Counted from the stretch's first letter, positions 3,769 to 49,424 are shown. The stretch is DNA of 64,000 nucleotides from Campylobacter iguaniorum (GCF_000736415.1 NZ_CP009043.1:496001-560000); one strand, 5' to 3'. The notes: generated from the sequence alone by a model not told the origin. Numbers and translations are program-made.

Positions 3769-3777
3769 GCATATTGT

Positions 3778-3785
3778 GATATAAT
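3778..3785 (+). promoter_or_regulatory. Extended -10 promoter for gltX
   Basis: TGATATAAT (TG at 3777-3778, hexamer TATAAT at 3780-3785) is a perfect extended -10 element about 24 nt upstream of the gltX ATG. It sits in the 41-nt gap after queC, so gltX probably begins its own transcript. AAGGA before the ATG is the ribosome binding site. Confidence 0.6.
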
Positions 3786-3809
3786 CGGCAAAAAATTTAA
3801 GGAATAAAA

Positions 3810-5099: not shown

Positions 5100-5389
5100 T
5101 GGTTTTAAATACATTTTTGCTTGCAGTTGCAAGTTTGCTTCATATAATTATCACAGCTTATACTTGGATCATCATCGCTGCAGCTCTTGTGAGCTGGGTC
5201 AATCCAGATCCGTATAACAAGATAGTTCAGCTGCTTTATCGCATCACAAATCCAGCTTATGAGTTAGTACGTAAAACACGCATTCCTACTGTTTTTGGTG
5301 GCATTGATATCGCTCCTATCATCGTGCTTTTGGCTTTGCAATTTTTAGATATGTTTTTGGTTGGTATTTTAGTTGGAATCGCTGGTTAG
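5096..5389 (+). CDS. YggT family integral membrane protein
   Basis: A 97-residue protein with two hydrophobic segments (about 5-30 and 70-95) separated by a basic stretch. The order and the '[21 protein letters not shown]' type of signature mark the YggT family. Family members are linked to membrane or cell-division homeostasis without a defined reaction. It is translationally coupled to gltX (ATGA overlap) and its 3' end overlaps the slt start by 17 nt, making a tight three-gene unit. Confidence 0.85.
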
Positions 5390-7037: not shown

Positions 7038-7434
7038 GCTTTAGTGTGTCGCTTTGTTTTTGCGGCGCACTGATTTTTAGATACATTCCCCACGGCATTT
7101 TAAATGTTGTAAGCTTCAAAAGTGGATCGTCATCGCTTAAAACTGATATTTTAGTCCCATTATTATCATCGTTTATCTTAAAAGAAGTAAAGTCTATTTT
7201 GGTATCTTTTGGATAGATTGATAGTATAAAATTTTCTTCATTATTTTGAGTTATTATATCTTGATGAATCGGATTTAAATATGTCCCAACTACTAAAAAT
7301 TTATCATTTGTATCTTCAAATTTTTGTGTGTAGGCTAGAAGCTCATTTTTAAGCGGGTCATGCACGTAAACTTTTTTTTGCAAACATCCAAAAGCAAGCA
7401 AGGCAATAGCAGTAAGTAGTAGATATTTTTTCAT
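6931..7434 (-). CDS. Putative lipoprotein of unknown function
   Basis: A 167-residue protein with a type II signal peptide and lipobox LAFGC (Cys17), so it is probably a lipid-anchored periplasmic protein. I recognise no catalytic motif. The equivalent position in C. jejuni, next to slt, also holds a lipoprotein gene. A clear minus-strand -10 (TGG-TATAAT, + coordinates 7458-7466) precedes it. Its last 107 nt overlap slt on the other strand. Confidence 0.8.
   Translation of the reverse strand: MKKYLLLTAIALLAFGCLQKKVYVHDPLKNELLAYTQKFEDTNDKFLVVGTYLNPIHQDIITQNNEENFILSIYPKDTKIDFTSFKINDDNNGTKISVLSDDDPLLKLTTFKMPWGMYLKISAPQKQSDTLKLSFERLDETSHHLQVSLSFQKIAKSLYWNSKSPNK
7043..7078 (+). terminator. Terminator for the gltX-yggT-slt transcript
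   Basis: AGTGTGTCGC (7043-7052) pairs with GCGGCGCACT (7062-7071) in a 10-bp stem with two G-T pairs and a 9-nt T-rich loop. It is followed by GATTTTT. It lies just after the slt stop but inside the coding region of the opposing lipoprotein gene. Confidence 0.6.
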
Positions 7435-7486
7435 CAGCGTCCTTAAATTTTTACCAAATTATACCATATTTTTAAATTTATTTTTT

Positions 7487-7547
7487 TGATAAGTATAATC
7501 AAAATAAGAAAAAATTTAGCAAGCATATATTATAATAACAATTATCA
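7487..7547 (+). promoter_or_regulatory. Two Fur-box-like palindromes at the flavodoxin operon promoter
   Basis: Compared with the 7-1-7 consensus TGATAAT-N-ATTATCA, TGATAAGTATAATCA (7487-7501) matches 12 of 14 positions and TAATAACAATTATCA (7533-7547) also matches 12 of 14. Each overlaps a TATAAT hexamer (7494-7499 and 7531-7536). Binding at either would touch the promoter. The start codon of the first gene is at 7570. Confidence 0.55.
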
Positions 7548-7569
7548 AAAAAGTATCAAGGAAAAACCC

Positions 7570-7896
7570 ATGTCAGTATTAGTAATAGGCGCAGATGAGA
7601 TCACTCCGATCAAGGCGGTTTTAAAAAATTTAGGTGCAAGCAATATCGAACATTGGGATGCTAGAAATGAAAATAGGGTAAATAGAAAACCAATCCCAAA
7701 TGGCACCGAGTGTGTCGTCATGCTAACTAGTTTTTTGAATCACAACACAATGAAAAAGATAAAAGGCGAAGCCAAGAAGAGAAATATACCAATAGTTTGC
7801 GCTAAAAGAAGCGTGAGCTGCGTATTTTGCGAATACTGCAAGGTTTTTGGCTTAAATAAAGAATTTGGATGCGATAGACTTGATTGTGATAAATAA
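7570..7896 (+). CDS. DUF2325-type protein with cysteine-rich tail
   Basis: 108 residues from ATG 7570, chosen because AAGGA lies 8 nt upstream; an in-frame ATG at 7486 falls inside the promoter. The N-terminus resembles DUF2325 ('VLVIGADEITPIKAVLKNLGA'), a small Rossmann-like domain. The C-terminus carries Cys77, 84, 87, 90, 101 and 106, including C-x2-C-x2-C, which could bind a metal or an Fe-S cluster. Function is unknown. It is the first gene of a three-gene unit ending in flavodoxin; the same trio occurs in C. jejuni, where I recall it as iron/Fur-responsive. Confidence 0.75.
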   Translation: MSVLVIGADEITPIKAVLKNLGASNIEHWDARNENRVNRKPIPNGTECVVMLTSFLNHNTMKKIKGEAKKRNIPIVCAKRSVSCVFCEYCKVFGLNKEFGCDRLDCDK

Positions 7897-35216: not shown

Positions 35217-35260
35217 ATCGGTATCCAAATTTGATACAAATTCTTAAAAAGGAGAGCCTT

Positions 35261-37855
35261 ATGAGTAGTTTTATTAAAACTCCATTCGTAATGACTGCTG
35301 GACTGTGTCTTGCTATGTCATCAATGTTTGGCGCAAGTGAACTTGAAACTATCATGAAAGAGCGTAACTTGAGTGAGAAAGATGTATTAGCGGCTGCTAA
35401 AACATATCAACCAAGTGGACGTAAAGATGAATATGTAGTATTTTCATCAGGTGGACAAAGCGGACAAATTCTTGTTTATGGTGTTCCATCAATGAGAATT
35501 TACAAATACATTGGTGTTTTCACTCCAGAGCCATGGCAAGGCTATGGATATGACAACGAGAGTAAAGCAATACTAAAAAGCGGAGCCATAAGAGGCAAAG
35601 AGATAACTTGGGGCGATACTCACCACCCAAATTTCACTGAAAAAAATGGTGAATACGTAGGTGATTATCTATTTATAAATGATAAAGCCAACCCAAGAAT
35701 GGCAGTTATCAACTTACACGATTTTGAGACTTCTCAAATAGTTGTAAACCCTATTATGAAGAGCGAACACGGCGGTAGCTTTGTTACTCCAAATACAGAA
35801 TACGTTATCGAAGCTAGCCAATACGCAGCTCCATTAGATAATGGTTATCACCCAATTGATGAGTATGAAGCAGTCTATAGGGGCGCTGTTACACTTTGGA
35901 AATTTGACTATGCAAAAGGCAAGATCGATGAGAAAAAATCATTCTCACTTGAACTTCCTCCATATATGCAAGATCTAAGTGACGCTGGTAAGGGTGAGTC
36001 TATGGGCTGGGCATTTACAAATAGCTTCAACTCAGAGATGTATACTGGTGGTATAGAAAAAGGTCTTCCTCCATTTGAAGCTGGTATGAGTAGAAATGAC
36101 ACTGACTATATGCACGTTTATAACTGGCAAATACTAGAAAAACTAGTTCAAGATCCAAAAAACTACAAAATAATAAATAACCACAAAGTTATTCCAATTA
36201 GCGTAGCAGTTGCAAACAATGCACTTTTCTTGATACCAGAACCAAAATCTCCACACGGTGTTGATGTAACTCCAGATGGTAGATATATTTTAGTTGGTGG
36301 TAAACTTGATACTCACGCATCAGTTTATGACTTTAGAAAAATTAAAAATTTGATCGACAAAAAAGAGTTCGCTGGAAAAGATCCATTTGGTATTCCAATC
36401 CTAGATATGAAAAAAACTCTTCATGGTCAAGTTGAATTAGGTCTTGGACCACTTCACAACGCTTTTGACTCAAAAGATGGTATAGTTTATACATCTTTAT
36501 ATGTTGATAGCCAAGTTGTAAAATGGGACTACAAAAACCTAAAAACTCTTGATAGGGTAAATGTTCACTACAACATAGGTCACCTTGACACTATGGAAGG
36601 TAAATCAGCAAAACCAGTTGGTAAATACGCTCTAGCACTTGATAAACTCTCAATTGATAGATTTAATCCAGTTGGCCCACTTCATCCACAAAACCACCAA
36701 CTTATCGATATAACTGGTGCTAAAATGGAGCTAATCTATGATATGCCAATCCCTCTTGGTGAGCCTCACGATGTTATCTCTATCGCAGCTAGCAAGCTAA
36801 AACCAGCTATGACATACAAAATGGGTACAAACTCAAGAACTGGCGAACAATCAGTTGGTATGACTCTAGCAGGACAAGAGAGAATAGAAAGAAAAGGCAA
36901 AGACGTAACTGTTTATGCAACTCTAGTAAGAAGCCATATCAATCCAGAACACATCGAAGTAAATAAAGGTGATAACGTAACTATCTACTTAACAAACTTA
37001 GAGCGTGCTCAAGATGAGACTCACGGTTTTGCAATCGATCTATATAACGTTCATGCTTCAATCGAACCAGGTAAAACCGCAAGTGTTAGCTTTGTAGCTG
37101 ATGAAGAAGGTGTATTCCCTTATTACTGTACAGAGTTTTGTTCAGCACTTCACCTTGAGATGATGGGTTATATGTATGTTAAAGATCCTAACAAAAAATA
37201 TGAATCAGCAAGAAAGATGAAACTTCAAGAGCTTAGCAAACCTGAACTTGAAGCTGAATACAAAAAAGTCATCGCTACAAATAAAGCAACTGATGATGTT
37301 ATCCAAAGCGTTGTAACATTCTTAAAAGAAAAACACTTTGAGAAATATCCAAAAGTTAAACAACTTGTTGAAGATGCACTTGATCAATATGGTAAAATAG
37401 CTGAAGTCAAAGCAAAAGCTGATGAAGCTTATAAAAAAGGCGATATCAACGGTGCTATTTTGTGGGAATACCAAGTATGGCAATACATGGTTAAAACTGC
37501 AGATGTTGGCTTAAGAGCTAAAAATAATCTTACAAAAGCTCTTGCAACTCCTATGAGTCCAGTTGTAGCTCGTGGTGAAGAAGCATACTTAAAAGGCGGA
37601 TGTAATGGTTGTCACGTTATCGGTCAAGTAAGCTCTGGTCCAGATCTAACTGGTGTTTTACTAAGACACGAAAATGCTGAGCAATGGGTATTTGATTTCA
37701 TCAAAAATCCGGCTACTAAATATGAAGAAGATTATGTAAAAGCTATGATAAACTACTTCAACCTTAGAATGCCAAATCAACACATGACAGATCAAGAGAT
37801 CAAAGATATCATCGAATACCTAAAATGGATCGATGAAAACGCTGGACTAAACTAG
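35261..37855 (+). CDS. nosZ: Nitrous oxide reductase, clade II (Sec-exported, cytochrome c-fused)
   Basis: Reduces N2O to N2 in the periplasm. 864 residues from ATG 35261, chosen because AAGGAG precedes it; an in-frame ATG lies 30 nt earlier. The signal peptide lacks twin arginines, so export is Sec-type as in clade II enzymes. The propeller domain carries histidine-rich CuZ motifs ('GDTHHPNF', 'SEHGGSF', 'SPHGVDV', 'EPHDV'). CuA ligands lie in 'YYCTEFCSALHLEMMGY' (Cys623, Cys627, His631, Met634). A C-terminal monoheme cytochrome c domain has Cys781-x2-Cys784-His785, as in Wolinella. Confidence 0.97.
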   Translation: MSSFIKTPFVMTAGLCLAMSSMFGASELETIMKERNLSEKDVLAAAKTYQPSGRKDEYVVFSSGGQSGQILVYGVPSMRIYKYIGVFTPEPWQGYGYDNESKAILKSGAIRGKEITWGDTHHPNFTEKNGEYVGDYLFINDKANPRMAVINLHDFETSQIVVNPIMKSEHGGSFVTPNTEYVIEASQYAAPLDNGYHPIDEYEAVYRGAVTLWKFDYAKGKIDEKKSFSLELPPYMQDLSDAGKGESMGWAFTNSFNSEMYTGGIEKGLPPFEAGMSRNDTDYMHVYNWQILEKLVQDPKNYKIINNHKVIPISVAVANNALFLIPEPKSPHGVDVTPDGRYILVGGKLDTHASVYDFRKIKNLIDKKEFAGKDPFGIPILDMKKTLHGQVELGLGPLHNAFDSKDGIVYTSLYVDSQVVKWDYKNLKTLDRVNVHYNIGHLDTMEGKSAKPVGKYALALDKLSIDRFNPVGPLHPQNHQLIDITGAKMELIYDMPIPLGEPHDVISIAASKLKPAMTYKMGTNSRTGEQSVGMTLAGQERIERKGKDVTVYATLVRSHINPEHIEVNKGDNVTIYLTNLERAQDETHGFAIDLYNVHASIEPGKTASVSFVADEEGVFPYYCTEFCSALHLEMMGYMYVKDPNKKYESARKMKLQELSKPELEAEYKKVIATNKATDDVIQSVVTFLKEKHFEKYPKVKQLVEDALDQYGKIAEVKAKADEAYKKGDINGAILWEYQVWQYMVKTADVGLRAKNNLTKALATPMSPVVARGEEAYLKGGCNGCHVIGQVSSGPDLTGVLLRHENAEQWVFDFIKNPATKYEEDYVKAMINYFNLRMPNQHMTDQEIKDIIEYLKWIDENAGLN

Positions 37856-37875
37856 TCTAAAAGTTCTTATGAACT

Positions 37876-37905
37876 AAAAGCTGCCGTAGAAATACGGTGG
37901 CTTTT
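37876..37905 (+). terminator. Strong hairpin between nosZ and nosB (intra-operon terminator or processing site)
   Basis: AAAAGCTGCCGTA (37876-37888), loop GAAA, TACGGTGGCTTTT (37893-37905): a 13-bp stem with two G-T pairs and a stable GNRA tetraloop, ending in TTTT. A small AGTTC/GAACT hairpin (37862-37875) precedes it. It would lower read-through into the maturation genes. Confidence 0.8.
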
Positions 37906-37914
37906 AATGCACGA

Positions 37915-37972
37915 TATAACAAATTAAATTTAGTATTAAACCGTTTAGTTCAATACTAAATTAAATAAAGGA
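37915..37972 (+). promoter_or_regulatory. Promoter-like box and leader hairpin before nosB
   Basis: TATAAC (37915-37920) predicts a start near 37927, where AATTTAGTATT (37927-37937) begins; it pairs with AATACTAAATT (37952-37962) in a perfect 11-bp stem. The ribosome binding site AAAGGAAAAA follows directly. A second nos promoter or an RNA-processing site would explain it. Confidence 0.5.
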
Positions 37973-37978
37973 AAAACG

Positions 37979-38749
37979 ATGAAGAAGTACCAAATTTACA
38001 CCATTTTGGCTCTAGTTTTGATGACTATTGGATTTACTATTCCAGTTATTGCTTATCACGGAATGGGTGATAAGATAAAAAACGAAATTAGCTTACCAAG
38101 CTATGTGTATCCAATATACAATCTTTACACAAAGATCCAATACAAAAACCATCTTATGGCTGAAGATGTCAAGTATGATCTAGCTAAAATGATCGAAACT
38201 AGATCAGAAATCGGCGTTCCAAGTTTGCCTATATGGTATGTCTCACTTGAAGCACCAAACTATCCAAAAGAAGCTTTTCCAGATGGGATTCCAGTATATT
38301 TTCACGTAGATGGATATAGTGGTGATGTTCATGAGATGAATACCATAAATCACTATATAGGAATGTACCCTATGGAGCATGGTGGCAATGTCGAAAGAGC
38401 TATAGCTCCGTATTATTTGTTGGTTGCGACTATTTGTATGTTGCTTTATCTATACTATGATGGCAAAGGCAATTCACTTCTTATGATACCAACTATCATA
38501 GCTCCAGTTTTGTTTATGAGTGCATTTGCTGGCTGGCTTTATTGGTACGGACATAATATGCAAGAGTGGGGTGCATTTAAAATAAAACCATTTATGCCAA
38601 CAGCTTTAGGTGATGGCAAGGTGGCTCAGTTTACCACTCACTCATATCCGACTATAGGATTTTGGGTAATGATGGCGATGAGCATTTTATGTATTTTGGC
38701 AATATTTTCCAAAAATAAATATTTGAGAGAGAAAAAGGAAGTTGCGTGA
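37979..38749 (+). CDS. nosB: NosB, membrane protein of clade II nos operons
   Basis: 256 residues: an N-terminal transmembrane segment (8-28), a periplasmic domain of about 110 residues, then three further segments (about 139-157, 164-186 and 225-243). It lies directly after nosZ, the place of NosB in Wolinella and other clade II clusters, where it is needed for N2O respiration though its chemistry is unknown. Histidine-bearing segments ('INHYIGMYPMEHGG', 'YGHNM') are present. It overlaps nosD by 4 nt. Confidence 0.85.
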   Translation: MKKYQIYTILALVLMTIGFTIPVIAYHGMGDKIKNEISLPSYVYPIYNLYTKIQYKNHLMAEDVKYDLAKMIETRSEIGVPSLPIWYVSLEAPNYPKEAFPDGIPVYFHVDGYSGDVHEMNTINHYIGMYPMEHGGNVERAIAPYYLLVATICMLLYLYYDGKGNSLLMIPTIIAPVLFMSAFAGWLYWYGHNMQEWGAFKIKPFMPTALGDGKVAQFTTHSYPTIGFWVMMAMSILCILAIFSKNKYLREKKEVA

Positions 38750-39960
38750 GAAAACTTGGCTTTTTAGTCCTTGCTTTTAATATTTGTCTTGCGAATCCAC
38801 TTCAAGATGCGATAAATAACGCAAATGATGGTGACGTCATCACTCTTGGGGCTGGAGTATATGAGGGAAATATACTCATAAACAAGCCTATAACCATAGA
38901 CGGCAAGGATCAAAAAGCAATCATCAGAGGTAACGGCACTGGTGATGTGATCAAAATCACAAGTGGAAATGTCAGGCTTTTAAATTTAACCATAGAAAAT
39001 AGTGGAAACTCGCATACTACTATAGATTCTGGCATTACTTGTGATAATGCAAGTGATATTTTGATAGAGGGAAACTCGCTTAAAAGTACGCTTTTTGGAG
39101 TAAATTTCAAACAGTGTAACAACTCAAAGATATTAAACAACAAAATTACTTCAAAGCCAGTTGATCTAGGGCTTAGGGGAGATGCGATAAGGCTTTGGTA
39201 TAGCCATGATAATATAGTTGAAGGCAACTACGTATATGACAGCAGAGATATGGTCGTATGGTACTCAAGCAACAACATAATTAGAAAAAATTATGGCGAG
39301 AGAGGTAGATACTCACTTCACTTTATGTACGCTGGAAAAAGTCTTGTAGAAGAAAATGAGTTTAAGCAAAATTCAGTTGGAATTTTCTTTATGTTTTCTT
39401 CTGGCTCACTTGTGAGAAATAATAAAGTTTTTAGCTCTACTGGGGCTTTTGGAGTTGGGATAGGTATGAAAGATACTAGTGATTTTGTGATCGAAAACAA
39501 CATACTTTCGCACAATGCAAGGGGCTTGTATCTTGACCAGTCGCCATTTCAGCCAGGAACTGTAAATGTGTTTAAAAATAATCAAATTTTATACAACACA
39601 TCTGGCATTCAGTTTCACGCAACTCAGCATAAAAGTATCTTTGAAAACAACGATTTCATAGGAAATATGGAAGTTGCTATCAATGATACCCCAGGCTCAA
39701 AAATAGCCAAAAATGAGTGGAGCAATAATTATTTTGATGATTATGCTGGATTTGATAGGGATAAAAATGGCATAGGAGATATTGCGTACAAGAACTTTAC
39801 TTATCTTGATTCGCTCTGGCAATACTATCCAAATTTGAGATTTTTTTATGGAAGTTCTATCATGACTATACTAAATTTTATAGCAAGACTTGCTCCGTTT
39901 TCTGAGCCAGAACTTTTAATAACAGATTCTATGCCAAAAACAAGGCCAAACCATGACTAG
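38746..39960 (+). CDS. nosD: NosD, periplasmic copper-site maturation protein
   Basis: 404 residues starting at GTG. A signal peptide is followed by right-handed beta-helix repeats of the CASH/pectate-lyase type, with many N-x-I/V-x-x-N turns ('NNSKILNNKI', 'SNNIIRKNYGE', 'ENNILSHNARG'). NosD works with the NosFY ABC transporter to build the CuZ sulfide cluster of NosZ. It is coupled to nosB (GTGA) and its end overlaps nosG by 8 nt. Confidence 0.92.
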   Translation: MRKLGFLVLAFNICLANPLQDAINNANDGDVITLGAGVYEGNILINKPITIDGKDQKAIIRGNGTGDVIKITSGNVRLLNLTIENSGNSHTTIDSGITCDNASDILIEGNSLKSTLFGVNFKQCNNSKILNNKITSKPVDLGLRGDAIRLWYSHDNIVEGNYVYDSRDMVVWYSSNNIIRKNYGERGRYSLHFMYAGKSLVEENEFKQNSVGIFFMFSSGSLVRNNKVFSSTGAFGVGIGMKDTSDFVIENNILSHNARGLYLDQSPFQPGTVNVFKNNQILYNTSGIQFHATQHKSIFENNDFIGNMEVAINDTPGSKIAKNEWSNNYFDDYAGFDRDKNGIGDIAYKNFTYLDSLWQYYPNLRFFYGSSIMTILNFIARLAPFSEPELLITDSMPKTRPNHD

Positions 39961-40633
39961 ACGAGATTTTAGTATATTTAGCATAGCCACACTTGCCACA
40001 AGCGTCGCAGGTGGATTTGCTATAAATAAATTTTATGATAAAAAACCGCATTTAAGACCGCCAGGAAGTGCGAAAAACTTTGAGTCACTATGTATCAAAT
40101 GTGGTCAATGCGTGCAAGTTTGCCCATATCATAGTATTGAGCTTTTGGGCGTTGATGATGGTGTAAATATAGCTACTGCGTTTATTGATCCAAGCAAAAG
40201 AGGGTGCTATCTTTGCGATCTATTTCCTTGTGTGCTGGCCTGTCCAAGTGGGGCACTAGATCACAACACTACAAGCATAAAAGATGTGAAAATGGGCGTT
40301 GGCGTGGTTGTGAACTTGCCAAGCTGTTATGCAAATTTACAAAAAGATGTCCAAAAAAGCGATGTCGAGCATCTTTTGGAGCGAAAAACGTTCAACGAGC
40401 GTGAAGAAAAAGCCAAACAAATCATAGCTGATAATGTTGGCAAAAACTGCTCTTTATGCGTGGATTCATGTCCGGTTTCTGGAGCGATAAGCTTAGCTCA
40501 AATAGATGGCAAACCAGCACCTAAATTTAGCGCTGATTGCGTTGGATGTGGGGTTTGTGTGGAAGTTTGCTTTGCAAAGGTTATTGAGATCGCAGCTGGC
40601 AAAAGCTATGACGAAATTTATAAGGAAAATTGA
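39953..40633 (+). CDS. nosG: NosG, ferredoxin-type iron-sulfur protein
   Basis: 226 residues, NapG-like. The N-terminus has 'TRRDFSIFSIATLATSVAGG', a twin-arginine-type signal or anchor. Several [4Fe-4S] cysteine groups follow: 'CIKCGQCVQVCP', 'CYLCDLFPCVLACP', 'CSLCVDSCP' and 'CVGCGVCVEVC'. With NosH it is thought to form a menaquinol dehydrogenase feeding electrons through NosC1 and NosC2 to NosZ. Confidence 0.9.
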   Translation: MTRRDFSIFSIATLATSVAGGFAINKFYDKKPHLRPPGSAKNFESLCIKCGQCVQVCPYHSIELLGVDDGVNIATAFIDPSKRGCYLCDLFPCVLACPSGALDHNTTSIKDVKMGVGVVVNLPSCYANLQKDVQKSDVEHLLERKTFNEREEKAKQIIADNVGKNCSLCVDSCPVSGAISLAQIDGKPAPKFSADCVGCGVCVEVCFAKVIEIAAGKSYDEIYKEN

Positions 40634-41172
40634 TGAAAAAACTAGTTATATTTAGTATTTGTGCTTTGTGCTTTTTGGGATGCAGTAGTGAGGATAAAAA
40701 GGCGGTTCAAGAAATAGAGCAAAATACTACCACAACCTCCATAACGGTTAAAAAAGGCGATGCCTTGCAAAACACTCAAAATCAGTGGATGAGCTATGAT
40801 ATGGACGGCCAAAAAAGAGTTAAATTTGGTCTTGGTAATGAGAATAACGAAACCACAAAATCAATAGGCGCTTTGGCATTAACAAGAACTCCACTTCAAA
40901 GCATAAACAAAGCTTTGATAAGAGGAAGATTAAGCAATAACTTCCTTATAAAATGCTCAGCCTGTCACGATGACTATGCAAACGGAATCATCGGTCCATC
41001 TTTGCTTGCAAAGACAAATGATGAGATATTTAACATGATAAACGCTTATAAAACAAAAACCAAAGCTAATGTTTTGATGGCGGATTTGGTCAAAAAAATG
41101 GATGAAAAAGAGATTAGAGCTTTAGCAGATGAAATAAGTAAATTTAATGAACAATTTAGGAGCAAAAAATGA
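40633..41172 (+). CDS. nosC1: NosC1, lipoprotein monoheme cytochrome c
   Basis: 179 residues from ATG 40633, overlapping the nosG stop, with AAGGA 6 nt upstream. Lipobox FLGC (Cys17) predicts a lipid anchor. One heme site, 'CSACHDDYANG', lies in the second half. It should carry electrons in the periplasm between the NosGH complex and NosZ. The end overlaps nosC2 by 4 nt. Confidence 0.85.
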   Translation: MKKLVIFSICALCFLGCSSEDKKAVQEIEQNTTTTSITVKKGDALQNTQNQWMSYDMDGQKRVKFGLGNENNETTKSIGALALTRTPLQSINKALIRGRLSNNFLIKCSACHDDYANGIIGPSLLAKTNDEIFNMINAYKTKTKANVLMADLVKKMDEKEIRALADEISKFNEQFRSKK

Positions 41173-41618
41173 ATACAGGAAAAATAGTTGCAGGCACACT
41201 TGGCGGAGTTGTTGTACTTTTGATGGTTTATTTGATGGCTAGCGGAGATAGCACTCCAGTAGCTGCGAAGCAAGAAGTAGCAAAACAAGCTGCGACTCCA
41301 GTAGCTCAGCCAAAGCAAGAAGAGGGCTTCCAAACTAGCAGTGAACTAAATAAAATAAAAGAGCTAAAACAAAGTGTAACGATCACAAATGACGGCGTTA
41401 GCAAGCTTTATCTAAGAAGTTGCGCTCCATGTCATGGAAAAGATGGCAAAGGAATCCTAGCTCCAGACATAACTGGCAAAAACAAAGAAGCTATTTTAGC
41501 CTCACTACATGACTATAAGGCAGATAAAATCCCAAATAGCTTAATGAAGGGACTTTTGACAAACGTAAGTGATGAGAATTTAACCCAGCTAGCTGATGAA
41601 ATAGCTAACTTTAAATAA
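41169..41618 (+). CDS. nosC2: NosC2, membrane-anchored monoheme cytochrome c
   Basis: 149 residues: an N-terminal membrane anchor (about 5-25), an Ala/Pro/Gln/Lys-rich linker (about 30-52) and a small cytochrome c domain with 'CAPCHGKDGKG'. It pairs with NosC1 in the same operon and, by position in Wolinella clusters, relays electrons to the cytochrome domain of NosZ. Confidence 0.85.
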   Translation: MNTGKIVAGTLGGVVVLLMVYLMASGDSTPVAAKQEVAKQAATPVAQPKQEEGFQTSSELNKIKELKQSVTITNDGVSKLYLRSCAPCHGKDGKGILAPDITGKNKEAILASLHDYKADKIPNSLMKGLLTNVSDENLTQLADEIANFK

Positions 41619-41623
41619 AAGCC

Positions 41624-42520
41624 ATGAATAAATTTGAAAAACGCCAAACCGTCGCAAATGCGAGCTTTTTTAGCACATTTATAACTACAAAAGAAAATGG
41701 CAAAAAGGTGCCAAGCATTAGATTTTATAGGTATTTTACTATGATTTTGGTGCATTTGCTTTTTGTGCTTTCATTTGTCGCTGATGTGCAAGTGCTTGAG
41801 GGCGATATAACAGGCTCAAGAATGATAGGATTTCACTTAGCAGATCCATTTATCACCACTGAAGTCGTGCTAGCTCATCATGATTTTCCTGTAAATTTGC
41901 TAATTGGCTCTATAACGATACTTGCATTTTACGTACTTTTTGCTGGTAGGGCATTTTGTAGCTGGGTGTGTCCGTATAATTTTTTTGCTGAATTTGCCGA
42001 AAGACTAAATGCAAAACTAATAAAAGCCAAAATTATAAAAGATAGAGAGTTTGATCACAGGGTCAAATATATCTTTTTAATCGCATTTTGGGTACTTAGT
42101 TTTACTAGTGGATATTTGGTTTTTGAGATTGTAAATGTAGAGGGAATCATATCAAGATTTATTATTTATGGTTACAGCGCTGCTATTTGGTGGGTTGTGC
42201 TTATATTTTTGGGTGAAGTTTTCTTCTCAAGGAGATTTTGGTGTAGATATGTCTGTCCGATCGGGACTTTGTATTCACTCATCACCAAATATAGAGCCAT
42301 AAAAATAAGCTGGAATAAAGAAAAATGCGACCATTGTGGGGTTTGCATGGATGTTTGTATGGTTCCTAAAGTCCTTGAGATGACAAAGGCAAAAAACAAA
42401 GACGCAAGTGGTGATAAATTTAGCGTAGCTAGTGGAGATTGCACGCTTTGTGGTAGGTGTATCGATGTATGTCACCAAGACGCTCTAGGCTATGAAAATA
42501 GATTAAAAAAACTACTATAA
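41624..42520 (+). CDS. nosH: NosH, polytopic iron-sulfur quinol dehydrogenase subunit
   Basis: 298 residues, NapH-like. Four hydrophobic segments, two cytoplasmic-type C-x3-CP motifs ('CSWVCPYNFF' and 'CRYVCPIGTLYS') and two C-terminal [4Fe-4S] groups ('CDHCGVCMDVC' and 'CTLCGRCIDVCHQD'). It is the predicted menaquinol-oxidising membrane partner of NosG. It starts 5 nt after nosC2. Confidence 0.9.
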   Translation: MNKFEKRQTVANASFFSTFITTKENGKKVPSIRFYRYFTMILVHLLFVLSFVADVQVLEGDITGSRMIGFHLADPFITTEVVLAHHDFPVNLLIGSITILAFYVLFAGRAFCSWVCPYNFFAEFAERLNAKLIKAKIIKDREFDHRVKYIFLIAFWVLSFTSGYLVFEIVNVEGIISRFIIYGYSAAIWWVVLIFLGEVFFSRRFWCRYVCPIGTLYSLITKYRAIKISWNKEKCDHCGVCMDVCMVPKVLEMTKAKNKDASGDKFSVASGDCTLCGRCIDVCHQDALGYENRLKKLL

Positions 42521-42531
42521 AAAGGTAAAGC

Positions 42532-43179
42532 TTGATAAAAATAGATAGTATCACTAAAACTTTTGCTAGTCAAACGGTTTTAGACAGTGTAAATTTAGAG
42601 ATAGAAGACGGGCAAAAGGTTCTTATAATAGGTCAAAATGGAGCTGGAAAATCTACTCTTATGAAAGCGATTTTAGGCGAGCTTATATGCGACACGGGCA
42701 CTATTACGATAAATGGAATCGACCCGACAAAAGATAGAAAAAAGGCTTTAGAGTTTTTAAGCTTCGTGCCTCAAACCCCGCCACCTCTTAAACTAAGAGT
42801 TGATGAGCTTTGTGAATATAGTATAAAATCTAGCGGGTCAAATTTAAGCGATATAAAAGCTTATCTAAAAGACCTTGAGCTTGACTATGATAAAGAGGCA
42901 AAAAAGCCATTTTATAAGCTTTCGGGCGGTATGAAACAAAAGGTTTTGATAGCCATAGCACTAGCCAGAAAATCAAATACCATAATGTTTGATGAGCCTA
43001 CAGCCAACCTCGATCCAGAAGCAAGGGATAGATTTTTAGAGCTTTTGAATGCTAAATTTAAAGACAAAACAATTATCTTCATATCTCACAGGATAAGCGA
43101 AGTAAAAGGCATCGTAACTAAAGTCGTAGAAATGGATCTTGGCAAAATCGTAAATGAGCGAAGGATAGAAAATGAGTAA
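42532..43179 (+). CDS. nosF: NosF, ABC transporter ATP-binding protein
   Basis: 215 residues, starting at TTG after AAAGG. Walker A 'GQNGAGKST', ABC signature 'LSGGMKQKV' and Walker B 'TIMFDEPTANLDPEA' are intact. With NosY it forms the transporter that supplies a sulfur species to NosD for copper cluster assembly. It overlaps nosY by 8 nt. Confidence 0.92.
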   Translation: MIKIDSITKTFASQTVLDSVNLEIEDGQKVLIIGQNGAGKSTLMKAILGELICDTGTITINGIDPTKDRKKALEFLSFVPQTPPPLKLRVDELCEYSIKSSGSNLSDIKAYLKDLELDYDKEAKKPFYKLSGGMKQKVLIAIALARKSNTIMFDEPTANLDPEARDRFLELLNAKFKDKTIIFISHRISEVKGIVTKVVEMDLGKIVNERRIENE

Positions 43180-43999
43180 TTTACTTTTGATAACAAAAAT
43201 AGATATAAAAGAGTCTTTCCGCTCAAAATGGTTTTTGCTCTATCTGCTTATTTTTGCTGGACTTATAGCGGTGTTTTTCGTAACTGGCGTGGTCGATAGC
43301 AGAGTGGCTGGATTTAGCGGGCTTACTCGTATGCTTTTGCTTTTTATCCAAATTTGCATAATCATCTTGCCGATTTTTATCTTGATAACTACAGTTAGAA
43401 GTATTAGTTCAGATAGAGAAGCTGGGGCTTTGGAGTACCTGCTAAGCTTCCCAGTATCTTTAAAAGAATATTACTTTGGCAAGGCTTTGGGCAGAGCTTT
43501 TACTGTGCTTTTGCCTATTGTTTTAGCACTCATCTTTTCTGTGATTATATCGATCATAAAAGGCGTTAGTGTGACTTGGGATCTGTTTTTTTACTACACT
43601 GGACTTTTGGTTGTTTTAGGATTTGTCTTTTTATCTTTTGGATTTTTGATTTCTAGTAGTATCAAAAGCGGTGAGTTTGGGCTTGGGGTTGCGTTTTTGT
43701 TTTGGCTGTTTTTGCTTGCATTTTTAGATCTTGCATTAATCGGACTTATGATGCAAAGTGCTATTAATGAAAATATCATCTACTCTATTGCTATCATAAA
43801 TCCGCTTCAAGTCTTTAGAATAGCAGCCATGAGTATGTTTGATCCAAATTTAGCAGTCATTGGACCAGCGGCTTACTTCATACTTGATAGTTTTGGCAAA
43901 GTTAGTTTTATATTATATTCACTTATTTATCCTATAATACTTGGAAGCTTTTGTTTATATTTTGGGTATTATCTATTTTCAAAGAGAGATTTGGTATGA
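43172..43999 (+). CDS. nosY: NosY, ABC transporter permease
   Basis: 275 residues with six hydrophobic segments and the family loop 'SSDREAGALEYLLSFPVSLKEYYFGKALGR', which couples to the ATPase NosF. Its stop overlaps the nosL start (ATGA at 43996-43999). Confidence 0.9.
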   Translation: MSNLLLITKIDIKESFRSKWFLLYLLIFAGLIAVFFVTGVVDSRVAGFSGLTRMLLLFIQICIIILPIFILITTVRSISSDREAGALEYLLSFPVSLKEYYFGKALGRAFTVLLPIVLALIFSVIISIIKGVSVTWDLFFYYTGLLVVLGFVFLSFGFLISSSIKSGEFGLGVAFLFWLFLLAFLDLALIGLMMQSAINENIIYSIAIINPLQVFRIAAMSMFDPNLAVIGPAAYFILDSFGKVSFILYSLIYPIILGSFCLYFGYYLFSKRDLV

Positions 44000-44451
44000 G
44001 AAATGTATTTTTATGTGCTTTGGTTTGTGCGTTTTGTTTGGGGGAAAATTTAAAAGATAGCGAGTTTTTTAAAGACACTAATACGACTTGCCCTATTAAA
44101 TTTATAGACGTGTTTAATCATCCCGATTGGATATCTGTTTTGGAGTACAAAAATGGACAAAAAGTCCTTTTTAGCTCAGTTAAACCGATGTTTCACTACT
44201 TTTACACTGACTCATATAAGCACATTTCGCCACTTAAAAAGATGTATGTGACTGACTATAAGAGCAAAGAGCTGATAGACGCTGCGAGTGCTTACTATGT
44301 GTTTGGCAGTAGGGTAGTTAGTAATAGTGGAGATGATTTGATACCATTTTTAAGTCTTGAAGATGCAAAAGATTTTATGGCAAAAAACTCAGGTCATAAA
44401 ATAATGGAATTTAAAGATATAAACAAAAAACTCATAGATTATCTTAATTAG
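43996..44451 (+). CDS. nosL: NosL, copper-delivery protein
   Basis: 151 residues from ATG 43996, chosen for the ATGA overlap with nosY; a longer frame from 43951 runs antiphase through nosY. NosL family marks are 'KVLFSSVKPMFHYF', 'YVTDYKSKELIDAASAYYVFGS' and 'FLSLEDAKDFM'. NosL binds Cu(I) for NosZ. The signal region 'NVFLCALVCAFCLGENLKD' has cysteines but no clean lipobox, so lipid anchoring is uncertain. Confidence 0.88.
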   Translation: MRNVFLCALVCAFCLGENLKDSEFFKDTNTTCPIKFIDVFNHPDWISVLEYKNGQKVLFSSVKPMFHYFYTDSYKHISPLKKMYVTDYKSKELIDAASAYYVFGSRVVSNSGDDLIPFLSLEDAKDFMAKNSGHKIMEFKDINKKLIDYLN

Positions 44452-44459
44452 GATTAAAT

Positions 44460-44900
44460 ATGAAAAAAGTAGTTTTTCTTTTTGGTATCGCCATTTTAGT
44501 GGGGATTATTTTGGCTTTTGAGTTTGGCAAGGGTAATGATATAAAATATGCGTCAGGCGAATCAAACGTCACTTGCGATCTAAATTTAGACAATTGCTCT
44601 GTGCAAGTCTCTGGCGAGCCTGTGACATTTGCATTTTCTCCAAAACCACTTGTGGCTATGGTGCCAACATCTTTGAAAATTTATGGTTTAAAAGGTGAGT
44701 TTAAAGAGCTTAAAGCTAGAATTTATGGCTTAAATATGGATATGGGCGTCATAGAAGTGGATCTTGAAAAACGCTCAGATATTTATATGTCAAATGTGGT
44801 TTTAAGCTCGTGTGTGGTCTCTTTGATGCAGTACCGTTTGGAGCTATTTGATGGCAAAAAACCTCTTGGCATACATATAGATTTTAATCTCAAGAGCTAA
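44460..44900 (+). CDS. Small membrane-anchored periplasmic protein at the end of the nos operon
   Basis: 146 residues: one N-terminal transmembrane segment (about 4-22) and a beta-rich periplasmic domain ('PVTFAFSPKPLVAMVPTSLKI', 'GLNMDMGVIEVDL', 'HIDFNLKS'). Cysteines at about 39 and 46 and a central Met-rich 'NMDMG' could bind a metal. The look is that of the FixH/YtkA-like group, but I do not recognise it with certainty. It follows nosL by 8 nt and its 3' end overlaps the convergent kinase gene by 11 nt. Confidence 0.6.
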   Translation: MKKVVFLFGIAILVGIILAFEFGKGNDIKYASGESNVTCDLNLDNCSVQVSGEPVTFAFSPKPLVAMVPTSLKIYGLKGEFKELKARIYGLNMDMGVIEVDLEKRSDIYMSNVVLSSCVVSLMQYRLELFDGKKPLGIHIDFNLKS

Positions 44901-46104
44901 AATCCACGCAAAATACATTTTGAGCGTTTTGATAAGTGTAAGTTAGCTTAAATTTATGCTTATCAAGTATGCGTTTGACTAGGCTTAGTCCGTATCCATA
45001 GCCGCTTAGCTCGTTTGTTTTTGTGAATTTATCTGTGTAGTAGCTAAGTGGTTGCTCTAGCTTTAGGGCGTGGTTTTTGACGTAGAGTTTGTGATTTTTG
45101 GCTACTATAAATATCTTATCTGATTTGGTAAAATCATTGTATTTTAAGGCGTTGTCGATTAAATTTTTAATAGCTATGCAGATGTAGTTTGGGTCTGCTT
45201 GGAAGCTAAAATTATCCCTTGCGTCTATCTCTATATTTTCATCAAAAACCAGCATTTGTGAGAGGCTTTGTAAAAGCACTGTTTGAATATTTAGCGTTTC
45301 TAGTTTGAAGTTTGCGTTTTGTGAGTTTAATCTTTCTATATGCATTAGCTCATCAGTGAGCTTGTCCATGCTAGAGACGGCGTTTTGGAGTATTGTTTTG
45401 TATTTGCTATCTTCAAGAAAACTTATGGCTATTTTGGATTTTGAGATCGGTGTGCGTAGCTCATGGCTGATGTCTGTTAGAAGCTGGATTCTAGCCTTAT
45501 CCATAGCTTCAATATCGCTTGCCATTTGGTTAAATTTATCTATGACTTGGGCGATTTCATCATTGCTTTTTGTAGGTTTTAGCCTGTATGAGTAGTTGCC
45601 TTTTCCAAATTTTTCTATTGTATTTGCTAGTTTTTTGATAGGTGTAAGTATCTTGATAAATATCAAAAACGTTACAAAAAGTAAGAAAATATCGGCATAT
45701 ATGAGTAAATTTAGAGTTGTTTTTTCTCTAGCTCCAAGCATTTGAGTGGTGTCAAACAAAAACAAATTCTCATCTAAATAGCTTAAATTTAGATAATAAA
45801 GTCCTGAGTTTTCATAGAGTTTAACGTGTCCAAATGTGATTTTCTCTGAGTAAATTTCTTTATAATCTTTTAGATTTTCAGGTAAATTTGACCTAGTAAA
45901 TTCCAAGATTTTAAGACGATTTTGAAGATTTTTTGAGTCTGCGTTTATGAGTAATGCGATAAGGTCGTTTGCACTTTGGATATATTTTTCTTTATAAAAC
46001 AGCTGAGCTTTTGCATTTTGGATCTGGTTTGTTTTAAACGACAAAAATCCCATCAAAGCAAGGCTAATGCTAAGTAAAATAACGGCTTTGGCAAAAATAC
46101 TCAT
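44890..46104 (-). CDS. Sensor histidine kinase (envelope type)
   Basis: 404 residues: transmembrane segments (about 5-22 and 133-152) around a 110-residue periplasmic domain, a HAMP linker, phosphoacceptor His214 in 'DISHELRTPISKSK', and an ATPase domain with 'IKNLIDNALKYN' and 'GYGYGLSLVKRI'. Overall plan resembles CpxA and its Campylobacter relatives. It lies 2 nt after the response regulator and downstream of a Spy-like gene, as in Cpx-type envelope stress systems. Confidence 0.88.
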   Translation of the reverse strand: MSIFAKAVILLSISLALMGFLSFKTNQIQNAKAQLFYKEKYIQSANDLIALLINADSKNLQNRLKILEFTRSNLPENLKDYKEIYSEKITFGHVKLYENSGLYYLNLSYLDENLFLFDTTQMLGAREKTTLNLLIYADIFLLFVTFLIFIKILTPIKKLANTIEKFGKGNYSYRLKPTKSNDEIAQVIDKFNQMASDIEAMDKARIQLLTDISHELRTPISKSKIAISFLEDSKYKTILQNAVSSMDKLTDELMHIERLNSQNANFKLETLNIQTVLLQSLSQMLVFDENIEIDARDNFSFQADPNYICIAIKNLIDNALKYNDFTKSDKIFIVAKNHKLYVKNHALKLEQPLSYYTDKFTKTNELSGYGYGLSLVKRILDKHKFKLTYTYQNAQNVFCVDFSS

Positions 46105-46106
46105 AT

Positions 46107-46766
46107 CTATCCTATAAACTCATAACCCATTCCCCAGACTGATTTTATAAATTTAGGGGATTTTGAGTCATCGAGAAGTTTGTTTCTGATATTGCTTATA
46201 TGCATATCGATACTTCTGTCTTTTAGCTCTTTTTGCAAGGCTTGGTTGATAGTGGAGCGTGATAGGATTTTGCCTTTGTTATTTAGTAGAAGTGTTAGGA
46301 TTTCGTACTCGATTTTGGTAAGATCAAGCTGGAATCCTTGATAAAATATCTTGCAAGCGTCTTCATTTATGCTAAACTCTCCTATTTGTTTGGCGGTTGC
46401 CTTTGGCATCGCCCTTTTTAAGATGGCGTTTATCCTCATTATCAGCTCTTTTGGCTCATAAGGTTTGGCTAGATAATCATCAGCCCCGCACTCATAAGCT
46501 AGAACTTTATCGCCTAAATTTCCTCTTGCGCTTGAGATAATGATAGGCACTTGGCTAAATTTTCTTATCCTTTTGCATACTTCAAAGCCGTCAAGTTTAG
46601 GCAACATCAAATCAAGTATTACAAGTGTAAATTCGCACTCTTCAAGCTCTTTTATGGCTGCTAACGGATCGCTAAAACTACTTACGCTAAACTCATAAAT
46701 ACGCAAATAATCCTTTAAAAGCTCTTGCATCTCAAGGTCATCTTCTATAAGCAAAATCTTACTCAT
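46107..46766 (-). CDS. OmpR-type response regulator
   Basis: 219 residues from ATG 46766, which overlaps the stop of the upstream gene (ATGA). Receiver: 'LLIEDD', Asp52 in 'ILDLMLPKLDG', Lys in 'AKPYEPKELI'; C-terminal winged helix ends 'SVWGMGYEFIG'. It is the cognate partner of the adjacent kinase and probably controls this cluster. Confidence 0.9.
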   Translation of the reverse strand: MSKILLIEDDLEMQELLKDYLRIYEFSVSSFSDPLAAIKELEECEFTLVILDLMLPKLDGFEVCKRIRKFSQVPIIISSARGNLGDKVLAYECGADDYLAKPYEPKELIMRINAILKRAMPKATAKQIGEFSINEDACKIFYQGFQLDLTKIEYEILTLLLNNKGKILSRSTINQALQKELKDRSIDMHISNIRNKLLDDSKSPKFIKSVWGMGYEFIG

Positions 46767-47146
46767 CTTATGTTCCAATGCTCTAAATTTTTAGAGAGTT
46801 GCTTTCTTTGTTTTTTGTCTAAAACAGCGTGGATTTGAGCCAAAAGCTCAGCTTGAAGTGATAAAAGTGTCATCTCATAGTCTGTTTGAAGCTCGATAAA
46901 TTTATCCTTGTCAAACTCGCTTTCTTCAAACAAATCCTCTTTTTCATCTTCGATATCGTCTTTTAACTCTCTAAGGTGCTTTAGCTTTTTTGAATAATTT
47001 TTTAGGATATTTTTAATCTCTTCTTGCTGATTTTGGCTCAAATCCAAAAATGATAAATCGTTGTTGTAGATATATTTGTGCTTGTATTTGTGGCCATCGC
47101 CAAACGCAAATGCAAACAGCATAAAAAATATGATAAAAATTCTCAT
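46763..47146 (-). CDS. Spy/CpxP-like periplasmic protein
   Basis: 127 residues: signal peptide ('IFIIFFMLFAFAFG'), then long charged helices. 'DLSQNQQEEIKNIL' and 'LDKKQRKQLSK' resemble the LTxxQ motifs of Spy/CpxP proteins, which act as chaperones or feedback inhibitors for CpxA-type kinases. The gene sits between the cytochrome b gene and the two-component genes, overlapping each neighbour by 4 nt, so the whole cluster is likely one transcript. Confidence 0.7.
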   Translation of the reverse strand: MRIFIIFFMLFAFAFGDGHKYKHKYIYNNDLSFLDLSQNQQEEIKNILKNYSKKLKHLRELKDDIEDEKEDLFEESEFDKDKFIELQTDYEMTLLSLQAELLAQIHAVLDKKQRKQLSKNLEHWNIR

Positions 47147-48243
47147 TTGATGCTTTCAAATTTGATTAAGTCTTTTTGGATTATACCATTTTGGATGCCT
47201 TTATGACAAGCTTCGCAGTTTGCTTTGCTTTTGATACTTTTTTGCTCAAAAGTTTTGGCTGGGATTTTATCATGCTTTTTGATCCAATACGCATTTTGCG
47301 TGATAGCTATCTCATTTTTACTTGTTTTTGCGATTTTGGTTGATATTTTGGTACCTGTTTTATCAGCTGAGTTTCGCACTAAATATTTCAAAATCTCAGA
47401 GTTGCTCTCATCATCTATGCTTGCGTCATCTCCAAAGTGGTTTTCAAGATCACTCATCATAATCTCCCAAGATTTTGCAGTTAGCAAAAACGGTGGATAG
47501 ATAAAGTGACAGCTTCCACATTCTTTGGCAAAAGTAGGGTTTTGCATAGCATAATCTACCATTTCATAATGGCTTTTAAGCAGCGGATTTTGTTTATAAA
47601 AGCTGAAAGATAAAGCGGTCAAAATCGCTCCTATCCAAATTATGCAAAATAGCTTTTGTGCTAAATTTGGCTTGATAGCTCCAGCGTTTAAAGTGCTTTT
47701 AAAGCCAGTTATAATAGCGTTTAAACTATCATTTTTAGCTATAAGCTTATCTACTAAAGCTCCACAAATATGCACCAAAATCACACCCAAAAGCAAATTT
47801 GCACTGATTTCATGGATATCTTTTACGAAGCTAAATTTAGAGTAGCTTTCGTATAAATTTGCAAACACGCCAGATTTTTCATCAATACCATAAACCATAA
47901 GTCCGCTAAGGCTGCAAACAACGCCAAGAGCTAGTATAATGATGATGGCTATACTGGAGGCTGGATTGTGTGATATATAGGCGGTTTTGTGGCTACTAAA
48001 AGAGCTAAAATATCTAAAAAGTCCCCTAAAATGAAAATCACTAAATTTAGAGTATTTCGTCCCAAATAATCCCCACAAAATCCTGCCAGCTACTGCCACG
48101 CCAAACATCACGCCCAAAACTGCGTGCATATAAAGCGAAAAATCCACGATAAGATAAGCCAGCCCAAAGCCCACTATCATGGCGATGTGGGCTAGTCTGC
48201 TAGCGAGTGGGTAGATGAGGGTTTTATTTTTCCCAGCGTCCAT
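47143..48243 (-). CDS. Cytochrome b561 fused to a diheme cytochrome c (DHC) domain
   Basis: 366 residues from ATG 48243 (MDAGKNKT), chosen because GGAG lies 10 nt upstream; a longer frame to 48309 overlaps the preceding gene. The first 200 residues hold four hydrophobic segments with histidines as in cytochrome b561 ('YPLASRLAHIAMIVG', 'YMHAVLG', 'DIHEISANLLLGVILVHICG'). After a fifth segment comes a periplasmic domain with 'CGSCHF' and 'CEACHKG'. That domain is plainly homologous to the protein of the next upstream gene ('SWEIMMSDLENHFGDDASID' against 'SWEYIMGSLENHYGTDASID'). Confidence 0.85.
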   Translation of the reverse strand: MDAGKNKTLIYPLASRLAHIAMIVGFGLAYLIVDFSLYMHAVLGVMFGVAVAGRILWGLFGTKYSKFSDFHFRGLFRYFSSFSSHKTAYISHNPASSIAIIIILALGVVCSLSGLMVYGIDEKSGVFANLYESYSKFSFVKDIHEISANLLLGVILVHICGALVDKLIAKNDSLNAIITGFKSTLNAGAIKPNLAQKLFCIIWIGAILTALSFSFYKQNPLLKSHYEMVDYAMQNPTFAKECGSCHFIYPPFLLTAKSWEIMMSDLENHFGDDASIDDESNSEILKYLVRNSADKTGTKISTKIAKTSKNEIAITQNAYWIKKHDKIPAKTFEQKSIKSKANCEACHKGIQNGIIQKDLIKFESIK

Positions 48244-48724
48244 AGTTTGGTATCTCCACGTCTTTGTCTTTGAAGTAGGCTTTATCAGCACCCTTGTGGC
48301 AAGCCGCACATCTTGCTAAGCTTCCTACCTCTTTTTGCTCAATCATCCAAGGTTTGATATCTTTGTGCTTTTCTTTTAAGTATGGAATTTGCGTAAGTGA
48401 TTTATACAAAACTCCTTTTTCAAGCGATTTTGTGATTTTAGCACTTCTTTTGTAATTCATAGCATTTTGGCTTGAGTTTGCTACTAAATATGCTAGAAGC
48501 TCTTTATTATCGCTTTCATCTATGCTAGCATCAGTGCCATAATGGTTTTCTAAAGAGCCCATGATGTATTCCCAAGACTGAGATGGAAGAAGTCCAGGCT
48601 GATAGCCAAAGTGACAGCTCGCGCACTCTTTGGTATAAAGGGCATTATCGACTGGTTTTAGGCTTGGAGCTTTTGCATACAAGCTAACTAAACTTACTAA
48701 AAGTATCATAAAAAATTTCATCAT
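48224..48724 (-). CDS. Diheme cytochrome c (DHC type)
   Basis: 166 residues with a Sec signal peptide and two C-x2-C-H heme sites, 'CASCHFGYQPG' near residue 36 and 'CAACHKGADKAYF' near residue 139. Spacing matches the DHC cytochromes found beside SHP and cytochrome b561 in other proteobacteria. It overlaps the b561-DHC fusion by 20 nt and follows the SHP-like gene by 6 nt. Confidence 0.85.
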   Translation of the reverse strand: MMKFFMILLVSLVSLYAKAPSLKPVDNALYTKECASCHFGYQPGLLPSQSWEYIMGSLENHYGTDASIDESDNKELLAYLVANSSQNAMNYKRSAKITKSLEKGVLYKSLTQIPYLKEKHKDIKPWMIEQKEVGSLARCAACHKGADKAYFKDKDVEIPNYGRWEK

Positions 48725-48730
48725 CTATCC

Positions 48731-49150
48731 TTATTTTGTCATTATGTAGTATAGGACATCGCCTTTTTCTTTGGCAGTGCCTTCGCGTAAAAACACATCT
48801 TTGAAGTTTCTTTTTAGCCATTTTTTCACATCTTTTACATTTGTGAGCCTTGAAGCATTTGCTTTAGGCGATAGTGGATCAAGAGTTTTGTTTGTGAAAA
48901 CGTTTGTGCCATTTGTGCTTAGATCTGCGTTGTGGCAGCTTTGGCAAGAGAGTATTTGAGCGTCTTTGCCAGCGTTTTTGGTGAAGTAAATTTTCTCTCC
49001 TCTTAAAGCGTCAAAATCCTTGAAGCTTGCATCATCTTTTGAAGCCTGTACCTTTAGCTCGTTTATGTAGTTTTTCATATCTGGATTTAGCATCATTGCG
49101 TTTGCCACTCCAGCTACCAAACAAAGTGTTAAAACTGTTTTTTTCATCAT
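48731..49150 (-). CDS. DUF1924 / SHP-like monoheme cytochrome c
   Basis: 139 residues with a signal peptide and one heme site 'CQSCHNADLS' near residue 70. 'LRGEKIYFTKN', 'DPLSPKANASRLTNVKDVKKWLKRNFKDV' and 'GDVLYYI' are marks of DUF1924/sphaeroides heme protein. SHP has an unusual labile sixth ligand and binds oxygen or small anions; its physiological substrate is unsettled. First gene of the cluster; its promoter lies just upstream. Confidence 0.8.
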   Translation of the reverse strand: MMKKTVLTLCLVAGVANAMMLNPDMKNYINELKVQASKDDASFKDFDALRGEKIYFTKNAGKDAQILSCQSCHNADLSTNGTNVFTNKTLDPLSPKANASRLTNVKDVKKWLKRNFKDVFLREGTAKEKGDVLYYIMTK

Positions 49151-49172: not shown

Positions 49173-49178
49173 ATTATA
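49173..49178 (-). promoter_or_regulatory. Predicted -10 of the SHP/DHC/b561 cluster
   Basis: TATAAT on the minus strand, 23 nt upstream of the first gene. ATTTCTCCTTT on the plus strand just before the start corresponds to a strong AAAGGAGAAAT ribosome binding site. Confidence 0.5.
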
Positions 49179-49424
49179 ACGTGGCTTTGTAAAATTGAAA
49201 AATAGCTTTTCTTGACAGAAAATTGACAAAATTTAATTGCATAAATTTATAATTATTTAAATTCTTTAGCAAGTTATTTTGGCTATTTTATAGAAATTTT
49301 AACTCTGTTTATATTGATATGTGCTATTATTTTATCGCTTATTTTAATATGGTAAAAATTAGAGTTTTACAAAATAAGTATCAAAAAATGATGCATTATG
49401 CGCTATAAAAGGAACAGCTTTATA

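Follow-up and report, generated by a model that had tools for sequence, protein, structure and literature searches.

The question raised by this locus is whether six genes of Campylobacter iguaniorum, which place cytochromes beside a Spy-like protein and a two-component system, constitute a new respiratory or detoxifying system, as the initial annotation had proposed, or belong to a family of operons that is already known. The genes lie on the minus strand at positions 44890-49150 of the window, i.e. the whole stretch of 64,000 nucleotides that was analysed. Adjacent genes overlap slightly or lie at most 6 bases apart, and the order of transcription is SHP, sDHC, CytB/mDHC, Spy-like protein, OmpR-type regulator and HAMP/HisKA/HATPase kinase. 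The open reading frames (ORFs) and Pfam matches upheld the bounds, order and domains of the six tightly packed genes that had been annotated. The features are:

49211-49228, minus strand: predicted response-regulator box TGTCAATTTTCTGTCAAG, a tandem repeat with an 11-base period that begins 78 bases upstream of the SHP start
49188-49193, minus strand: TTTACA, inverted copy of the half-box TGTAAA; position +35 in the alignment of 21 genera
49173-49178, minus strand: TATAAT, -10-like element of the SHP promoter (21-genus alignment)
48731-49150, minus strand: SHP (sphaeroides heme protein, DUF1924), secreted monoheme cytochrome c of 139 aa (PF09086, 2.7e-29; phmmer match to 1dw0)
48224-48724, minus strand: sDHC, soluble diheme cytochrome c of 166 aa (PF09626, 7.9e-34; PDB 3u99, 2fw5, 2fwt)
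47143-48243, minus strand: CytB/mDHC, a b561 with a C-terminal diheme DHC (PF01292, 1.5e-17; PF09626, 5.9e-34)
46763-47146, minus strand: Spy-like periplasmic protein (family profile to Spy; AlphaFold model)
46107-46766, minus strand: OmpR/PhoB-type response regulator (PF00072, 1.4e-26; PF00486, 2.4e-18; D51 invariant)
44890-46104, minus strand: sensor histidine kinase, ArsS-like, 'SK3' of Meyer et al. (NF038389, 232 bits; model; H214 invariant)

For the fusion gene, a start at ATG 48243 is more likely than one at GTG 48309, which would give the longest ORF. A search of PLSDB gave no match that would indicate a plasmid origin or near DNA relatives. A nos cluster of the clade-II type (window 35231-44451, plus strand) converges on the operon; it encodes, in this order, NosZ with a C-terminal cytochrome c domain, NosD-, ferredoxin-, cytochrome c- and NosH-like proteins, an ABC ATPase, a permease and NosL. 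After NosL follows an ORF of 146 aa (window 44460-44900, plus strand), which shares about 10 bases with the kinase gene at the 3' end of the latter and for which no Pfam or NCBIfam match was found. Also in two congeners (L046 and L048), the SHP operon is flanked by genes sized like nos genes.

The product of the first gene was confirmed as an SHP-like (DUF1924) cytochrome by its Pfam match (2.7e-29). It aligned with the solved SHP of Rhodobacter sphaeroides (1dw0; phmmer 4.2e-13) such that W111 and N115 correspond to W84 and to the sixth ligand Asn88, and the distal pocket of the W84/N88 type that marks an SHP operon is present. The same is true for the adjoining DHC and membrane cytochrome b. 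The CxxCH heme site, W111 and N115 are conserved across 86 sequences. SHP has been called the only c-type cytochrome known to bind O2, and a high-spin SHP that takes up O2 in the reduced state is part of the description of the operon after Meyer et al. The window SHP does not have the Cys89-Cys97 disulfide (R. sphaeroides numbering): Phe and Gly stand where the two cysteines would follow the sixth ligand in 73 of 73 motif-matched SHPs and in most of those outside the motif match, one locus having a deletion at this position. Meyer et al. tie this disulfide to ligand dissociation (PMC2909971), and the ligand behaviour of the Campylobacterota SHPs could therefore differ.

The remaining cytochrome genes carry the heme ligands expected of an electron relay. 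Each DHC domain has two CxxCH sites and two further histidines that are conserved among Campylobacterota relatives. sDHC matches the solved DHC structures 3u99, 2fw5 and 2fwt, and both of its CxxCH sites, H61 and H120 are invariant in 85 sequences. In CytB, the expected ligands of two b hemes (H19, H40, H144 and H158) are invariant in 69 sequences. The free and fused DHC domains are homologous, as had been annotated by eye (BLASTP 43% identity over 147 columns, E 6e-33). In a tree of 82 DHC domains, one branch parts all mDHC from all sDHC domains (99/84), and the split corresponds to one change in 98% of the bootstraps. This shows that the duplication is older than the operon's spread through the phylum and, as far as the tree of these domains can tell, it is ancient; a local duplication in the window lineage was ruled out by the single branch. 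The mDHC and sDHC of Ruegeria fall on the corresponding sides of the split, with few columns and long branches for the non-Campylobacterota rows.

We found DUF1924 in 86 of 397 Campylobacterota genomes, representing 26 of 68 genera. The genes SHP-sDHC-CytB/mDHC form a near-constant core in these 86 SHP loci, which implies that a fusion plus a free DHC copy is the rule in the phylum, and the kinase is also present at 64 of the 86 loci. Outside the families coded f1 (the window's own) and f2, SHP-sDHC-CytB/mDHC-Spy-regulator-kinase is the usual form, and the six-gene order is kept across families f3, f6, f7, f8, f10 and f11. Many or most of the f1 and f2 species have the three cytochrome genes alone, so that regulation and electron transfer are separable. 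In the genus of the window, the core alone is found in most species, and two congeners retain the regulator and kinase but no Spy gene. In one genome (G276), the three-gene core is directly followed by MsrP and an MsrQ-like gene (L050 9130-10604), and Spy, regulator and kinase genes are absent there. In another locus (L087 4182-6817) and similar f6 loci, genes for EptA (lipid A phosphoethanolamine transferase), a PAP2 phosphatase and DgkA are located directly upstream of the SHP operon.

The regulatory genes differ in part from what the initial annotation had suggested. The phospho-acceptor D51 of the response regulator and H214 of the kinase are invariant among relatives. A predicted structure of the kinase places a small alpha/beta sensor domain in the periplasm, flanked by two membrane helices, with HAMP, HisKA and HATPase domains following. 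An ArsS-like label fits better than the annotated 'CpxA-like': the kinase scored 232 bits against NF038389 (ArsS_fam_HK; cut-off 250), and all 8 aligned homologs match this family (best 9.6e-86). Both NCBIfam equivalogs were missed (CpxA, 69.5 bits against a cut-off of 486; CpxR, 149.6 against 341), and these scores ruled out the kinase as a CpxA ortholog. The window operon has the features of the SK3 type, namely operon-borne regulator and kinase genes, SHP preceding the chimera and no C89-C97 disulfide in SHP, an assignment made from the description by Meyer et al.

The product of the small gene had been called Spy/CpxP-like, and this view is supported at the level of its family, whereas the single window protein stays below the Pfam LTXXQ threshold (15.4 bits; cut-off 24.3). 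LTXXQ is matched by 4 of 7 orthologs (best 1.7e-08), and a profile of the seven sequences found Escherichia coli Spy in the PDB at 2.3e-07 (Spy entries ranging to 5.5e-06) and CpxP at 0.08. The protein has a signal peptide, a His-rich N-terminus, two LTxxQ-type motifs and a predicted helical hairpin, and the Leu and Gln of both motifs are invariant in the 68 members from the survey loci. Its AlphaFold model is all helical (pLDDT 82); the top PDB hits of this model in Foldseek were CpxP, Spy and ZraP with non-significant E-values (0.4-0.9). Judged by these profile matches, the family can be firmly predicted to be Spy-like.

A conserved box with the consensus TGT(C/A)AAG-N4-TGT(C/A)AAG and an 11-base period was found upstream of SHP. 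A site was counted if it had at most 2 mismatches in the 12 positions of the query TGTCAA-N5-TGTCAA, which the window site at 49211-49228 matches exactly; shuffled regions reach this level in about 3%. Of the 64 loci that include the kinase, 63 carry the box; of the 22 that do not, one does. This association is strong but, the kinase-less genomes belonging mostly to f1 and f2, it reflects a few independent losses and not 22 separate events. The sole kinase-less locus with a box (L126) ends at a contig edge, and its kinase may thus have been cut off. Relative to the SHP start, most boxes lie between -78 and -92, and such a spacing is typical of OmpR-family activators. The tandem box resembles the CpxR box (GTAAA or TGTAAA-type repeats). 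When one locus per genus was aligned (21 genera in 8 family-level groups), the box appeared as an island of conservation, with 1.2-2.4 bits in its columns and mostly 0-0.3 bit in the flanking columns. It is followed at fixed spacing by the inverted half-box and then the -10 element. TTTACA/TTGACA was rejected as a -35 box, because only 9-10 bases separate it from the -10 element and its sequence is that of the half-box in reverse complement.

A looser pattern had two matches in the own genome, the SHP promoter and one weak match inside a gene, and a wider regulon was thus not found there. Across 32 genomes with the kinase, 35 sites were found, mostly SHP promoters, compared to 2 for a reversed control pattern. 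The association of box and kinase supports a self-regulated operon in which the box is the predicted site of the regulator. The tie between this promoter box and the kinase is an unreported, if modest, new result. Box-like sites also occur elsewhere. In three f6 genomes (L164 1720, L165 12075 and L167 9233), the box precedes nhaA, which is followed by another regulator/kinase pair, and in L164 and L165 a second box lies about 3.5 kb further on; the box may therefore have more than one regulator. In two f7 genomes it precedes an Opr-type porin gene, and in genome G340 (L172 8576, minus strand) it lies upstream of a gene for a bifunctional MsrB/A with a predicted signal peptide.

Altogether, we consider it likely, with a probability of roughly 0.78, that the operon is the Campylobacterota 'SK3' SHP operon, which passes electrons from quinol to SHP, where a ligand reacts, and which switches itself on via the box. 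Menaquinol would reduce the two b hemes of CytB, and the electrons would then pass through the fused mDHC and the soluble sDHC to SHP. Upon reduction, the Asn sixth ligand of SHP would be freed, and reduced SHP could bind O2 or NO in the periplasm and react with it. The Spy-like protein, the sensor domain of the kinase, or both may perceive periplasmic or envelope stress; the kinase would phosphorylate the regulator, which is predicted to bind the tandem TGTCAAG repeat located some 80 bases before SHP. Periplasmic electron transfer from quinol to SHP is well supported by the anatomy of the operon. The annotated relay of five c hemes between membrane quinol and a ligand-binding SHP is supported, as are the dedicated two-component system and the Spy-like protein, and two b hemes are predicted in addition. 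Reduction of SHP by sDHC and ligand binding are known from other species, and by analogy O2 or NO chemistry may take place at the SHP considered here. The operon probably supplies electrons to a small O2/NO-binding heme protein.

The position of the box beside the operon's own stress sensor suggests that the operon belongs to an envelope-stress response. Tentatively, and at slightly less than even odds, a Spy-linked ArsS-like system acting through the tandem TGTCAAG box may be dedicated to the SHP relay as nearly its only output across the Campylobacterota. If so, in 21 genera or more an O2/NO-binding cytochrome would serve as an envelope-stress effector and not as a respiratory branch of the housekeeping kind. 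Through a conserved box that is tied to one kinase, the inducing signal and, with it, the function of SHP can be approached directly in many free-living Campylobacterota, which makes the question of this function testable.

A different function of the relay is conceivable, namely that under a Cpx-like regulator it shields periplasmic proteins and lipids from oxidants or metals, rather than acting on NO or O2 per se. The Spy homology of the small gene's family and the likeness of the box to the CpxR box are consistent with this idea. So are the neighbours in f6, where the SHP operon is often immediately preceded, on its own strand, by eptA, a PAP2 gene of the lipid A phosphatase-like kind and dgkA (same strand for the eptA-type cluster in 18 of 18 and for the dgkA cluster in 13 of 13), but such neighbours are confined to particular clades and missing around the window operon. 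MsrPQ after the core and the box ahead of msrB/A point in the same direction, but each is found in a single genome. Likewise, the SHP operon of Allochromatium vinosum is strongly induced on pyrite, as are metal-efflux genes and a peroxidase (PMC11267869), but the sensor there is of a different type; a cytB-pepSY-eptA-dgkA arrangement is known from Vibrio (PMC12064563). The box targets, the f6 neighbours, A. vinosum and Vibrio thus lean toward a role in envelope stress or metal/oxidant stress, each link being limited to a clade, and we regard the shielding function as a serious possibility that falls somewhat short of probable. With respect to the annotated 'envelope-stress style' sensor, the Spy homology, the CpxR-like box and the lipid-A-modification neighbours in relatives speak indirectly for the style, but the kinase is not an ortholog of CpxA.

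It is rather less likely than not that SHP is a periplasmic NO dioxygenase that detoxifies NO for the nearby nitrous oxide reductase pathway. NO dioxygenase activity of R. sphaeroides SHP is cited in PMC2909971, and the operon faces the clade-II-type nos cluster (35231-44451), with size-matched genes flanking it in two congeners. However, adjacency to nos is confined to close relatives, and no nos genes were found within 7 kb in other families. Lastly, the Spy, regulator and kinase genes are very improbable as hitchhikers without control over the cytochrome genes: three-gene cores devoid of regulators do persist in most f1 and f2 species, but the box is essentially restricted to loci with the kinase, and the order of the genes does not vary between families.

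SHP operons with one or two DHCs were described by Meyer, Kyndt and Cusanovich in 2010 (PMC2909971). These authors listed the CytB/mDHC chimera for Campylobacter fetus, Arcobacter butzleri, Wolinella succinogenes and others, named the kinase of C. fetus and A. butzleri SK3, noted that the SHP disulfide is missing in these two species, and proposed the path quinol to CytB to DHC to SHP. In the literature on other species, sDHC reduces SHP, and SHP binds O2 and NO; O2 binding and a reported NO dioxygenase activity are cited in PMC2909971. The C. fetus/A. butzleri operon shares with the window SHP before the chimera, a regulator with its own kinase, the absence of the C89-C97 disulfide and the quinol-to-SHP path, and the window operon therefore belongs to this published family. 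Thus, the combination that had been annotated as undescribed was already known from C. fetus and A. butzleri, and the six-gene order is what most Campylobacterota families with SHP usually show. A prior description of this fusion and its neighbours had been named in the initial annotation as a ground for refutation, and the claim of a new combination is on that ground largely refuted. The window operon is an ordinary member of the family, and its novelty is low. Our literature search found no work on the SHP operon of Campylobacterota beyond that of Meyer et al.

The SHP operon of R. sphaeroides likewise combines a CytB/mDHC chimera with sDHC and SHP, and its SHP (1dw0) and DHC (2fw5) are homologous to those of the window, but its gene order is different and it lacks regulators (PMC2909971). 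Rhodobacteraceae SHP operons were reported to be without regulatory genes (PMC2909971), whereas a locus on a plasmid of Ruegeria sp. YS9 (L131) has both a regulator and a kinase. In this locus (2895-7741), which exemplifies operons of the SK1/Orf1 type with a regulator, a kinase and a small secreted accessory protein, CytB/mDHC-SHP-sDHC adjoins PepSY-domain genes and the regulator and kinase genes. The accessory proteins of Ruegeria have PepSY domains, unlike the Spy-like protein of the window type, so that an unrelated family occupies the accessory position; we infer that these PepSY-domain proteins are Orf1. In A. vinosum grown on pyrite, the SHP operon and its regulators ranked with metal-efflux genes near the top of the induced genes (PMC11267869). 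CpxPAR resembles the window operon in its Spy/CpxP-type protein, OmpR-type regulator, HAMP kinase and TGTAAA-type repeats in its box, but the window kinase and regulator score far below the CpxA and CpxR cut-offs, and the output is a cytochrome relay. Compared to the SK3 operon of Meyer et al., which was called unique to two species (PMC2909971), the form described here occurs in most Campylobacterota families with SHP, and it includes a Spy-like gene and a promoter box that are not mentioned in the text of PMC2909971. What the present analysis adds is the occurrence of the SK3 form throughout the phylum, the assignment of the small gene as Spy-like, the early separation of the two DHC types and the kinase-linked promoter box.
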